From Ichthyobacteriaceae bacterium (GTDB taxonomy: Bacteria; Bacteroidota; Bacteroidia; Flavobacteriales; JADGDT01), in NCBI GenBank assembly GCA_016744755.1, contig JADGDT010000023.1, positions 1 to 36,169 of the forward strand: a stretch of 36,169 bases of DNA, given 5' to 3'. Position numbers and translations under genes: made by a program. Shown in pieces: positions 15,223-18,915 of the stretch (its first letter is position 1; each line of letters opens with the position of its first letter). The notes below the pieces were generated by a model. It did no database searches. It saw nothing but the letters and a program-made list of their open reading frames with translations, and was not told where the DNA came from.

Positions 15223-15295
15223 TTTTTTTTAATCTTTTTGGTACCCTTTTCTATTTGTATAAGAATAGTAAGAGATTAAATTGCTCTTACTTTCA

Positions 15296-15469
15296 ATTTA
15301 TCACTTAGCCAAATTTACAATTTTTTCTTTTTTAATTAATACGCAAAATTTACAATTTTGCGGACATTATAAAATGCACTGAACTTTGGGTTAAGCACTA
15401 AATCCCTTATTATTTTTACACCGTGTTGAACTAAATCCGCCAACGGCGGCTAGCTTATCTCTAGTTCAA
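15296..15469. repeat. Cassette-spacer repeat, diverged copy, plus cruciform
   Basis: CACTTAGCCAAA ... GCGGAC ... GCACTGAACTTTGGGTTAAG and CACTAAATCCCTTATTA align with the spacer at 17732-17911 (CACTTAGCCAAA ... GCGGAC ... ACTAAACTTTGGGTTAAGCA). It is followed by a nested palindrome with outer arms TTGAACTA/TAGTTCAA (15426-15433, 15462-15469) and inner arms CCGCC/GGCGG. It marks the left side of the cassette-like array. Confidence 0.7.
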
Positions 15470-15529
15470 AAGTAGTGAATTCAAAAAAATAGGATACTAT
15501 TATCTAAGTTACAGTAATATTACAGAACT

Positions 15530-15555
15530 ATAAAAGCCTTATTTTCATAAGGCTT
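15530..15555 (-). terminator. Hairpin terminator between cassette array and glycan cluster
   Basis: Perfect 8-bp stem AAGCCTTA/TAAGGCTT with a 6-nt loop, followed on the minus strand by TTTTA. It would end minus-strand transcripts from the cassette array before the glycan genes. The rest of the 15223-15812 gap holds the repeat copy above and a possible short ORF. Confidence 0.5.
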
Positions 15556-15673
15556 GGATTTATATTGTCTAAAATATTGGGAGAATAAGCAGAAAAAATA
15601 ATATTGTATATTGGAGTAATAATTTCAACTAAAATATATTCGTAAAATTTAGCAGTCAAAGCTATTTATCTCT

Positions 15674-15787
15674 TCATAAAGTTTCAAATTCAGAAGTAAA
15701 ACCACTAAATCCTTCAACAGGTACATAGCAGAATGCACGGATGTAGTTCAACACTAGACTCATCGCTGGGTCTTGCAGACCGCTCAT
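15674..15787 (-). CDS. Possible short ORF or gene remnant (37 codons)
   Basis: ATG at 15785-15787 to TGA at 15674-15676. The product starts MSGLQDPAMSLVLNYIRAFC and ends with GFSGFTSEFETL. It is below the ORF-track cutoff. The amino-acid composition is protein-like and it is oriented like the cassette genes, directly left of the first cassette boundary. I do not recognise the family. It may be the C-terminal end of a displaced gene or chance. Confidence 0.25.
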   Translation of the reverse strand: MSGLQDPAMSLVLNYIRAFCYVPVEGFSGFTSEFETL

Positions 15788-15812
15788 AGTCCTATTTATT
15801 ATGGGCTGCCAT

Positions 15813-16453
15813 TTATTCTTTCATTTGATAAATCATATCGTAATCGTGAGCCGTTGCAAGAATTGGAATTTTTATCCATTCACTTCCTTTTTCTTTTGCG
15901 TCTAAAAAGGTCTGCTGAAAAAGTTGTTGAAGTCGAAGAATAATTAATAATTCACATATCTCCATAGATTTTTTTAGTTCTTCGTCATTCCATTTTTCAT
16001 ATAGTCTTGAAAAGTAGTCTGTATTTCCTCAAATCCCGTTATAGTTAAACTTTTCGCACTGTCAAATTCAAATTCTGCAAGCCAATCAATGTCTTCTAAA
16101 CCATTGTAGAAACTGTAAGCAAATAAATCAATAAACCATCTATCATAATTGATTGTAAAACCATTCATTTCACTATAAATGGCTTTCAACCCTTTTTCTG
16201 GATTAGTATTCTTCTTTTTGAAAATTGAACTTATTAATCCTTTTTTACCGATATAAAATTTTGAAGCAGAATTATAAAAGTCAGTCAAATATTTTGATAA
16301 GTCAGATTTTAAATGAAGAAGGTCATTATTCAAAACTTTATGAAAATCTGAATTCGGAAGTTCTTTCAGTTTTGTCTCTGCAATATTAATTGCTACTTCA
16401 ATATTATTCTCTTGAAGCAAATTATCAAGTTTGTCTGCTAATTCAAAATTCAT
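15813..16453 (-). pseudogene. Unknown cassette gene with a probable frameshift
   Basis: The ORF track gives 159 residues ending at 15974 (MNFELADKLDNLLQENNIEV...). Coding sequence continues in the -1 frame without a stop to 15813: YEKWNDEELKKSMEICELLI and on to LATAHDYDMIYQMKE. One extra T in the T4 run at 16010-16013 (minus strand ...ACTTTTCAAG...) would join both parts into a 213-residue protein. The joined ORF would end 6 nt from the left inverted repeat of its cassette, as in the neighbouring cassettes, which supports the reconstruction. The protein is soluble and helical, with no recognised domain or signal peptide. It is either a decayed gene, a sequencing error or, less likely, programmed frameshifting. 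Confidence 0.65.
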
Positions 16454-16493
16454 ATTATTCTATTCAAAATTACTGTTTTGTCTTTTTTTGGTT

Positions 16494-16628
16494 GCCCATA
16501 ACGACTGGGCTATGCGTAGTTTGGGGTTTTGAAACAATTAATTTTCAATTTACAAGGAAGTTCAAACGGACTACAAGCCTTGATACTACTACTGTCCCGC
16601 TTATTTTTTATATACATTGTTGCCAGTA
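16494..16628. repeat. Palindromic spacer between cassettes 1 and 2
   Basis: Begins GCCCATAACGACTGGGCTAT and ends ACATTGTTGCCAGTA. The outer edges are halves of the inverted repeats of the adjoining cassettes (GCCCATAA with 15799-15806; GTTGCCAGTA with 17722-17731). The motif GGCTATG..TAGT..GGG is shared with the spacer at 17722-17922, and the reverse complement of the right end (AATG.ATATA...AATA..CGGG) matches the other end of that spacer. Canonical attC core sites (RYYYAAC/GTTRRRY) are not seen. Confidence 0.7.
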
Positions 16629-16632
16629 GTTT

Positions 16633-17712
16633 TTATTCACTTTTAAATTCTCTCAAAACAGGTAAGGCATTATTATCAAAGTCAAACAATGCTTGATTTT
16701 CCCAAGGGGAAGCATCTGTAGATTGATTTCCTTTCCAAGCAATTAATTCAGCTCCCCAATAACAAAATCCTATTCCGTTTTCTAATTCTTTGGTCAATGT
16801 TTTTATTTGTTTTATAAAGTCTCTTTGACCTTCAGGAGTTGCTGGATATTCAGGTAAAATTAAATGTTCGTCTGAACCTACAATATTATTTGTCCAGTCA
16901 TTCCATTCGAGTGTAAAAGGGTAGGCTGTTTCTGCAATAACTATTTTTTTATTGTGGGTTTTACTTAAATTTTGCATTTTAGTTTTGAGGTTATTTAAAG
17001 ATTTTCCTTGCCAAATTGGATAATATGATAAGCCTATAATATCATAATCTAATGTATTTACTTGATTAAAAAACCAATCAGAACCTTCAATACCTGCAAA
17101 ATGTAAAATTATCTCAGTTTCAGTTGAATTTGCTCTTACTGCCGTAATCCCCATATTCATTAATTCTTTAAATTTTTGATAATTATTTGAAATATGACCA
17201 GATGGGTGAAGTAATCCAGAATTGATTTCATTTCCAATTTGAACATAATTTGGTTGTAATTCATTAATAATTTTTTCAGTATAATTATATACGCTGTCTT
17301 TCAATTGGGCAAAACTTATTCCTTGCCATTGTGTTGGAGTTTCTTGATGAGCAGGGTCAGCCCAAGTATCAGAATAATGAATAGTTAGCCAAGTTTTAAA
17401 ACCGTAAGTTCTTAAGGTTTGGGAAAACTGTTTTACTTCATTAAATCCAGAGTGTTCACTACTTGGATTTACCCAAATTCTCAATCTAACAGTATTTATT
17501 CCATTATCTTTAAGTATTGTTAAGAAATCATTTTGATTTCCTTCCAAATCATAGAACGTAGGATTTGAATTTGATATTTCAGGATAGCTTGAAATGTCAA
17601 CAGCAGAAATAAATGTCGAATTTTCATTCTCTGGAATAGGTACATTTATATCATCTTTATTACAAGAAACGAAAATCAAAAAAGTTATTAATATATGTAG
17701 TGTTCTATTCAT
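16633..17712 (-). CDS. GH53 arabinogalactan endo-β-1,4-galactanase, lipoprotein
   Basis: Secreted or surface lipoprotein hydrolysing β-1,4-galactan side chains of pectin or arabinogalactan. The N-terminus has a lipoprotein signal with lipobox ILITFLIFVSC (Cys about 16). The TIM-barrel domain shows NGINTVRLRIWVNP, WLTIHYSDTWADPAHQ, the acid/base Glu in VQIGNEINSGLL and the nucleophile Glu in IVIAETAYPFT, all at GH53 positions; the 359-residue length is normal. It is an orphan: no SusC/SusD pair or other glycosidase is near, unlike a polysaccharide utilization locus. It sits in cassette 2, bounded by GTTGCCAGTA/TACTGGCAAC inverted repeats 4 nt after its stop and 9 nt before its start, so acquisition as a single gene is likely. 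Confidence 0.93.
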   Translation of the reverse strand: MNRTLHILITFLIFVSCNKDDINVPIPENENSTFISAVDISSYPEISNSNPTFYDLEGNQNDFLTILKDNGINTVRLRIWVNPSSEHSGFNEVKQFSQTLRTYGFKTWLTIHYSDTWADPAHQETPTQWQGISFAQLKDSVYNYTEKIINELQPNYVQIGNEINSGLLHPSGHISNNYQKFKELMNMGITAVRANSTETEIILHFAGIEGSDWFFNQVNTLDYDIIGLSYYPIWQGKSLNNLKTKMQNLSKTHNKKIVIAETAYPFTLEWNDWTNNIVGSDEHLILPEYPATPEGQRDFIKQIKTLTKELENGIGFCYWGAELIAWKGNQSTDASPWENQALFDFDNNALPVLREFKSE

Positions 17713-17721
17713 TTTTCAAAT

Positions 17722-17922
17722 TACTGGCAACGTCTCGGCTATGGTTAGTACGGGAGTTAAAAGTAGTGAACTTCCGATTAAGCACTTAGCCAAAACTTTT
17801 TATTTTGTTTTATCTTTTTCTATTTTAAAGCCAAATCAAAAGATTTGGCGGACTTGGTTAAAAGCACTAAACTTTGGGTTAAGCACCAAAACCCGTATTA
17901 ACTATAGCCATTGTTGGCAACA
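17722..17922. repeat. Palindromic spacer between cassettes 2 and 3
   Basis: Left end ACTGGCAACGTCTCGGCTAT continues GGTTAGTACGGG. The reverse complement of the right end, TGTTGCCAACAATGGCTATA, continues GTTAATACGGG, so the ends form an imperfect inverted repeat of about 30 nt. A perfect central hairpin GCCAAATC-AAAA-GATTTGGC lies at 17830-17849. It contains GCACTTAGCC and CTTTGGGTTAAGCAC blocks shared with 15296-15425. Confidence 0.8.
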
Positions 17923-17937
17923 GTATTTTTTTCATTT

Positions 17938-18519
17938 TTATGGTAAAAGCAAAAATCTAATTCCGCTCCAATGGTTTCTATAATTCTGTTCAAAACTCAA
18001 AAGTTCATTTGATTTCGGCAATTTATTATTTTCCGCATATTCATTAAATTCAGATTCTGTTTTGAATTCAGTCATTTCGTCCGTTTTCAAGTCCAATACA
18101 AAATATGAGTTCTGAAAGTCATAAAACCAACTTTTTAGGTTTCCACATAATTTGTCATCCACAACTTTGAATTGTGTCGTTTCAATGTCATTTCCATCAC
18201 TTGTTTTTTGTCCTTTTAAGTACCCATATTCAGTCCAATTCGTGTTTTCAATCGTTTCCCAGTGTCCAATTGGAATCATTGGTCCATCTCCAAGTCCGTG
18301 ATTTCCCCAATAAGTAAACGAGTAAATAAAAAGTCCGATTGAGATTAAGAAACCAAAAGAAAACCAATATTTTTTCTTTTCCGATTTTACCCTTTTCAGA
18401 AATTCATTCGGTTTAAATTTTCCGATAATTAATAAAATTCCAATTAAAATAAACGAGTAAACCGATGCGAGAATTCCTATTTTAATTAACTGAAATATGA
18501 AGTGAAAAAGTACTTCCAT
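17938..18519 (-). CDS. Hypothetical membrane protein in cassette 3
   Basis: 193 residues with two N-terminal transmembrane segments (about 10-33 and 50-70), separated by a basic loop KFKPNEFLKRVKSEKKK, so both ends may face the same side. The C-terminal soluble part (GHWETIENTNWTEYGYLKGQ, then LKTDEMTEFKTESEFNEYAE) is unlike any family I recognise. It fills cassette 3, bounded by TGTTGGCAACA (17912-17922) and TGTTGCCAACA (18535-18545). It has the same orientation as the other cassette genes and no partner gene. Confidence 0.7.
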   Translation of the reverse strand: MEVLFHFIFQLIKIGILASVYSFILIGILLIIGKFKPNEFLKRVKSEKKKYWFSFGFLISIGLFIYSFTYWGNHGLGDGPMIPIGHWETIENTNWTEYGYLKGQKTSDGNDIETTQFKVVDDKLCGNLKSWFYDFQNSYFVLDLKTDEMTEFKTESEFNEYAENNKLPKSNELLSFEQNYRNHWSGIRFLLLP

Positions 18520-18915
18520 TGATTTGGGTTATATTGTTGCCAACACTTGTGTATAAAACACTAAGGTGTTATAGGTTTATTAATTACTATATTCCTAATA
18601 CAATAGTAATCATAAATATTGTAATTATCCGATTCTATAAATGCAACTTTGATACTTTTTAAGTTGCTTAAAAATTCACTATTAAATAAGAAAAATTCTT
18701 ACACTAATTTTACTTAGTGAAAGGGCTTTTAATATTTTAGGGTTGAAATATTTGATGCTAAATATTATGTAAAGCTTCTAGATTTGGTATGCTACAGAAG
18801 AATATGTTAGTTCGTAACTGTGAGTATAAATCTCGAATACTATTCCGAAAGGGTCTTAAACGTAAGCTATTTTATAGACCAATCTTAAAAGGGTAAGCCT
18901 CTGGTGTAACTTAGC
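18520..18915. other. Right boundary of the cassette array and unassigned spacer
   Basis: Contains the TGTTGCCAACA boundary repeat (18535-18545) right after the cassette 3 start, then AACACTAAGGTGTT and a TACAATA/TATTGTA hairpin near 18599-18623. From about 18630 to the mtaB stop nothing recognisable is seen: no ORF, tRNA or clear terminator. Confidence 0.5.

Follow-up and report, generated by a model that had tools for sequence, protein, structure and literature searches.

Three consecutive minus-strand genes on one bacterial contig, each packed between short inverted repeats, raise the question of whether they are mobile gene cassettes and, if so, of which system. They lie at 15.25–18.54 kb of contig C4 (JADGDT010000023.1) in the 3.64-Mb draft genome of an Ichthyobacteriaceae bacterium; the whole 36,169-nucleotide stretch that we analysed is called the window below. 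We conclude, with a probability of roughly 0.86, that the window carries three cassettes of a gene-capture system which resembles integrons, the best-known bacterial route for collecting single genes, while using a different integrase and different sites. The original prediction, made from the window alone, had proposed a single-gene, cassette-like mobility system of Bacteroidota. That proposal has held up: its sites are widespread and form arrays of up to 75 around single co-oriented genes, and one entire cassette has been transferred precisely between two orders; the findings named beforehand as refuting it did not turn up. All three repeat pairs and all three open reading frames are present in the window as described. 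However, the window by itself contains 16 perfect 10-nt inverted repeats spaced 400–1300 nt apart, compared with 13.0 ± 5.4 in shuffled sequences, a number not beyond chance, so comparison with other sequences was needed.

The spacers are sites of a common plan

Comparison of the spacers between the genes with their own genome and with other Bacteroidota found dispersed relatives in both; one of them (site 1, below) recurs at five other places in the same genome (contigs C237, C193, C236, C129 and C192). Read in the sense of the gene, each site consists of AAC, 3 nt, GGCTATA, a stem, a loop, the stem partner, TATAGCC, 3–6 nt and GTT, and the alignment contains outer and inner arms with unpaired spacers between them and a variable loop. 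There are two length classes, of about 123 and 187 nt. The shorter is sharply defined, with 124 of 134 sites being 122 or 123 nt long although the search pattern admitted about 98 to 131.

A degenerate form of this pattern matched at least 119 stretches (one genome per species), nearly all in Bacteroidota; the hosts among the matches listed were mainly Flavobacteriaceae, with others in Cytophagales, Saprospirales and Bacteroidales. With a looser regular expression, 1.13 Mb of loci yielded 205 sites, and the same sequence reversed yielded none. Within the order of the window's genome, a covariance model located sites in 81 of 298 genomes, while a stricter pattern did so in only 22. The R1 covariance model, built without any window sequence, matched both spacers, at 17728–17915 (E = 1e-10) and 16499–16621 (E = 0.0016). 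In Rfam no family matched the sites above its gathering score, the sub-threshold matches being those expected by chance. One of the pattern matches (L156) comes from a metagenome-assembled genome labelled Peptostreptococcaceae (Bacillota), on a contig that probably belongs to Bacteroidota and was misbinned.

Cassette ends are complementary across the gene

Neighbouring cassettes of an integron share the outer arm of a site; a cassette's start should therefore be complementary to its own end, with no such match expected within a site. We found this arrangement in G282, a complete genome of 3.63 Mb from the same order, in which the covariance model placed 75 sites on one strand over 67 kb. When cassette starts were compared with reverse-complemented ends, 69 of 73 neighbouring pairs had at least five matching nucleotides after GTT, and 55 matched at all seven, against 4 of 73 for matching within a site and 4.8% for random pairing. 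Other loci gave 29 matches among 59 neighbouring pairs, against 9 of 192 within sites and 2–5% at random; the failures are mostly distant pairs, probably with undetected sites in between. At position 11, all 74 of 74 cassette starts carry A, and the partner is G in 69 of 75.

The longest open reading frame runs in the sense of the site in 70 of 74 cassettes of this array. Median distances are 21.5 nt from the cassette limit to the start of the frame and 12 nt from its stop to AAC, which bears out the tight packing first noticed in the window. A cassette is thus one gene plus its 3' site with complementary ends, as in integrons. Few of the 66 cassette proteins examined (L258–L261) have Pfam matches (among them SUKH-4 immunity, ParD antitoxin, AraC regulator, amidohydrolase and TPM), and most have no known function, again as in integron cassettes. 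The 404-kb plasmid pPP2 of Persicobacter psychrovividus (NZ_AP025294.1) has at least 16 such sites, and its 301–372 kb region holds more than 60 annotated genes, almost all co-oriented and mostly hypothetical.

The end rule derived from these 75 other cassettes (A at the start and G at the reverse-complemented end) is obeyed exactly by two of the three units in the window, with GTT and seven matching nucleotides followed by A versus G. Cassette A (17732–18544, minus strand) comprises a gene for a SieB-like membrane protein (17938–18519, 193 aa; Pfam SieB, E = 0.0011, under the cut-off) and its 3' site 1; it starts with GTTGGCAACA-A, and the reverse complement of its end reads GTTGGCAACA-G. Site 1 (17729–17915, minus strand, AACAATGGCTATAGTTAATACGGG...CCCGTACTAACCATAGCCGAGACGTT) is of the long, 187-nt type. 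Cassette B (16503–17731, minus strand) carries a gene for a GH53 endo-galactanase-like lipoprotein (16633–17712, 359 aa; Pfam Glyco_hydro_53, E = 4e-90), has the ends GTTGCCAGTA-A and GTTGCCAGTA-G, and includes site 2 (16500–16621, minus strand, AACAATGTATATAAAAAATAAGCGGG...CTACGCATAGCCCAGTCGTT), of the 122-nt type. The inverted repeats thought to bound each gene are therefore real, but each pair is better described as the opposite ends of a single cassette, an arrangement shared with integrons. Likewise, the spacers are a repeated element, but not a separate one: each is the 3' site of the cassette that precedes it in the sense of the minus strand.

A tyrosine recombinase heads the arrays

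The original prediction had seen no integrase. None lies beside the window array, which is a small integrase-less cluster of three cassettes, but a dedicated tyrosine recombinase of about 375–400 aa adjoins arrays elsewhere, and the window's own genome encodes one, of 382 aa, whose gene lies at the end of the short contig C133. At 19 of 26 loci the integrase stop codon is followed, after 16–138 nt (median 39) and on the same strand, by a cassette with an exact 9-nt end match; the same search upstream of the gene gave 0 of 26, and shuffled sequence 1.7%. The integrase thus has an adjacent attI-like site at the head of the array, as in integrons, but behind its stop codon. The left half of this site is conserved in one clade as TATATTTGTnnnnnATATAAC[ACG]A|GTT. 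In the 75-site array the first cassette abuts the attI-like site and the array continues from the integrase.

Integrase and sites also occur together. With thresholds of E ≤ 1e-45 for the integrase and E ≤ 1e-4 for sites, the 298 genomes of the order comprised 54 with both, 27 with the integrase alone, 27 with sites alone and 190 with neither. All 25 genomes with at least seven sites had the integrase, while 0 of the 217 integrase-negative genomes had that many, in Fisher tests that ignore relatedness and genome size. The catalytic residues R-K-H-R-H-Y are invariant in nine of nine aligned integrases. This linkage to arrays suggests that the recombinase is the catalyst of cassette recombination.

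The sites fold preferentially on the bottom strand

With DNA energy parameters, 182 of 194 sites were calculated to fold more stably as the bottom strand than as the top (p = 2e-31), with mean folding energies of -21.4 and -18.3 kcal/mol, compared with -8.3 and -8.4 kcal/mol for random segments. Site 1 of the window behaves likewise (-29.9 versus -24.5 kcal/mol). The 11 pairs of the inner stem are 98.4% paired on the bottom strand, and the stem covaries, with 64 cells changed on both sides compared with 22 in shuffles and 3–19 when slid. At one conserved stem position the bottom strand forms a G.T pair where the top strand has an A.C mismatch, and position 11 of the cassette end arms does the same. 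Integrons, too, recombine the bottom strand of attC (PMC8352920). The integrase here may act on a single-stranded bottom strand.

These results bear on the best surviving alternative, in which the same integrase uses ordinary double-stranded Xer-type sites, with 10-bp arms around GTT, and the hairpin is incidental or a terminator. The best-scoring relatives of the integrase are indeed Xer/XerA enzymes, it lacks the insert typical of IntI, and cassette ends are perfect 10-bp arms. However, stem covariation and excess stability of the bottom strand would have no role in a duplex, nor would conserved top-strand A.C mismatches that turn into T.G pairs on the bottom strand; were the hairpin a terminator, the sense (top-like) strand should be the favoured one. 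Moreover, each site in an array has two unrelated outer arms, which a duplex site would tolerate poorly. Dif-like duplex sites are the substrates of XerA-type and simple tyrosine recombinases. In place of 28-bp dif-like flanking sites (XerCD/dif, pdif) we found hairpins of 122–187 nt with cassette-specific outer arms, and we regard the duplex explanation as improbable.

Integrase and sites fall outside the IntI/attC family

Could these nevertheless be classical IntI cassettes, a cluster of attC sites lacking integron-integrases (CALIN) with divergent attC sites? The AAC/GTT triplets, inner stem, unpaired spacers, bottom-strand folding and cassette logic would all agree, and true IntI (over the TIGR02249 cut-off) occurs in 84 of 297 genomes of a phylum sample. 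The recombinases behind our arrays, though, are different enzymes. They score at best 196–227 bits against TIGR02249, whose cut-off is 265, with the insert region unaligned; in alignment, residues 189–243 of the IntI4 structure stand opposite 10 aa of the integrase, and the distance from KGxKDR to LRHS is 60–63 aa compared with 102 aa in IntI. In a tree they fall outside a 100%-supported clade of 16 IntI proteins, with supports of 80–86 for their placement relative to it (sister or paraphyletic). No IntI was found at E ≤ 1e-60 in the window's genome or in the sampled genomes of its order; an IntI acting in trans was considered and rejected on this ground. The sites differ as well. GTTRRRY is present in only 3 of 74 R boxes of the 75-site array and 11 of 192 in other loci, GTTR alone being general, in agreement with the earlier remark that canonical attC cores are absent. 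Taken together, these differences make classical integron cassettes a very unlikely explanation.

Lacking both an IntI-type integrase with the insert and GTTRRRY R boxes, the system is integron-like in nearly every respect visible in sequence, yet by definition falls outside the IntI/attC family. The catalytic part of the integrase resembles XerA-type or 'simple' tyrosine recombinases in sequence and fold: the best-scoring relatives are Xer/XerA enzymes (NF040815; PDB 4a8e, 5hxy), and the fold matches XerA and IntI4. It differs from them in its linkage to arrays of hairpin sites and in an added, conserved N-terminal alpha/beta domain of about 95 aa (residues 1–95, in L194–L244). Pfam HARP matches this domain in 3 of 35 members (best E = 9e-5), and Foldseek proposes the XPB damage-recognition domain with a probability of 0.93 yet an E value of 0.23. 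As a lead only, the domain may be HARP/XPB-like and might serve to bind DNA that is unpaired or annealing.

The 84 of 297 genomes with true IntI lie nearly all outside the window's class. This count is far above the few Bacteroidetes integrons of the literature; for this group IntegronFinder 2.0 reported only In0 elements and one Salinibacter integron (PMC9024848).

A cassette has moved precisely between orders

Mangrovimonas yunxiaonensis (L094) and Echinicola shivajiensis (L135), members of different orders, share a cassette of about 782 bp at about 99% identity. The matching stretch runs from GTT to CCGTT, the flanks are unrelated, and in E. shivajiensis the cassette stands after an attI-like sequence. 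A second cassette, 87–92% identical, has differing surroundings in four loci (L140, L149, L161 and L218). That the spacers are ordinary dispersed repeats, similar to repetitive extragenic palindromes or miniature inverted-repeat transposable elements, among which genes are shuffled by homologous recombination, would fit their repetition and conservation across species, but it leaves unexplained the 10-nt end code, the fixed start and stop distances, the single orientation and the integrase at the head, and is hardly credible.

A lone cassette was also seen between aroQ and xerD (L043, contig C237, 4492–5480); the genome G002 is without it, though its intergenic DNA there is too diverged for the empty site to be placed, and ACAACAAGTATAT beside the insertion is kept in both.

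Proposed mechanism and points against it

In the mechanism that we favour, each cassette would be one closely packed gene with its 3' hairpin site. The integrase would recombine the folded bottom strand of this site with the attI-like site that follows the integrase stop codon, or else with another site, probably crossing over within the C-GTT common to both ends. Recombination at this shared sequence would let cassettes enter, leave and accumulate as co-oriented arrays, which could be read on from the integrase gene. An integrase encoded elsewhere, such as that on contig C133 of the same genome, could have laid down the window cluster in trans.

Several observations weigh against this integron-like reading. 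A third of the site-bearing genomes (27 of 81) have no clear integrase, and as many of the integrase-bearing ones (27 of 81) have no detected site. Many integrase copies contain one or two in-frame stops (L212, L214, L217, L220, L221, L222 and others), and loss of the integrase with retention of arrays therefore seems common. Two same-genus comparisons intended to find empty sites met intergenic DNA that was too diverged or a different gene order. In the window itself site 3 and cassette C are eroded.

Relation to known systems and significance

The likeness to integrons comprises single-gene cassettes, a 3' hairpin site with AAC/GTT outer triplets, unpaired spacers between the arms and a variable loop, a better-folding bottom strand, complementary cassette ends, co-oriented arrays and an attI-like site at the integrase. 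In well-known integrons intI points away from the array. Here, by contrast, array and integrase are co-oriented, with the attI-like site behind the stop codon of an integrase that is outside the IntI clade, is without the IntI insert and has an extra N-terminal domain; the R box is GTTR-n6-A, 10 bp instead of the 7 of GTTRRRY, and the inner stem GGCTATA is conserved across a class. The window array resembles a CALIN in having cassettes without a neighbouring integrase, but its cognate integrase is of another type and its sites miss the attC R-box consensus.

Beyond the window, and with appreciably less assurance, we lean towards a second, separately evolved integron-type capture system, widespread in Bacteroidota, with its own integrase lacking the IntI insert and bearing a perhaps HARP/XPB-like N-terminal domain, an attI behind that integrase, bottom-strand hairpin sites, arrays the size of super-integrons and cassettes that move between orders. 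Searches through the full text of open-access papers turned up no earlier description; preprints and subscription papers were outside this coverage, and a prior description is possible. If correct, a phylum dominant in seas, soils and guts would have its own large, overlooked cassette pool, mostly of genes without known function and transferable between orders, and cassette boundaries would help to annotate thousands of orphan genes. The IntI-specific insert in the catalytic domain has been described as essential for integron function (PMC8138268); the system would make it possible to test directly whether recombination of single-stranded hairpins depends on it.

The eroded end of the window array and a guest element

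The window array is flanked by a glycosyltransferase gene on one side and a MiaB/MtaB-type radical SAM gene on the other. Its third unit, cassette C (15755–16502, minus strand), contains an EAD11-like gene (15974–16453, 159 aa; a weak Pfam match, E = 0.0097) and has an interrupted site; its start reads GTTATGGGCA-A and its eroded end GCAGCCCATAAT. A remnant of an IS91-like element (15425–15754, minus strand), with a 17-nt inverted repeat at 15423–15439/15738–15754, splits this cassette from site 3 (15251–15427, minus strand, AACACGGTGTAAAAATAATAAGGG...CTCTTACTATTCTTATACA). The first repeat pair of the original prediction, TTATGGGC/GCCCATAA, is therefore present, but it pairs the start of cassette C with an end that has eroded. 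The diverged spacer copy noted at 15296–15425 is indeed related to site 1 (70% identity over 108 nt, E = 1e-13) and can now be described as a third site, of a diverged long type that has lost its terminal GTT.

The open reading frame of the IS91-like element fuses a tyrosine-recombinase part to the C-terminus of an IS91 transposase. All seven copies in the genome have the terminus GCCGTTGGCGGATTTAGTTC in front of the AAC of an attC-like site, with base position and orientation unchanged (adjoining site 3 in the window, and at C129:17301, C186:1386, C193:17999, C198:3029, C219:100 and C236:3065). One-ended transposition of the IS91/ISCR kind was considered as the mover of cassettes and rejected, since all seven copies merely abut sites; the element is thus a guest rather than the mover. 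In entering cassette recombination sites at one position it resembles IS1111-attC elements, from which it differs in being IS91-like, fused with a tyrosine recombinase and placed at AAC in 7 of 7 copies. From this placement the element appears to be a site-specific parasite of cassette sites, and the seven termini at AAC indicate independently that these sites are recognised as targets.

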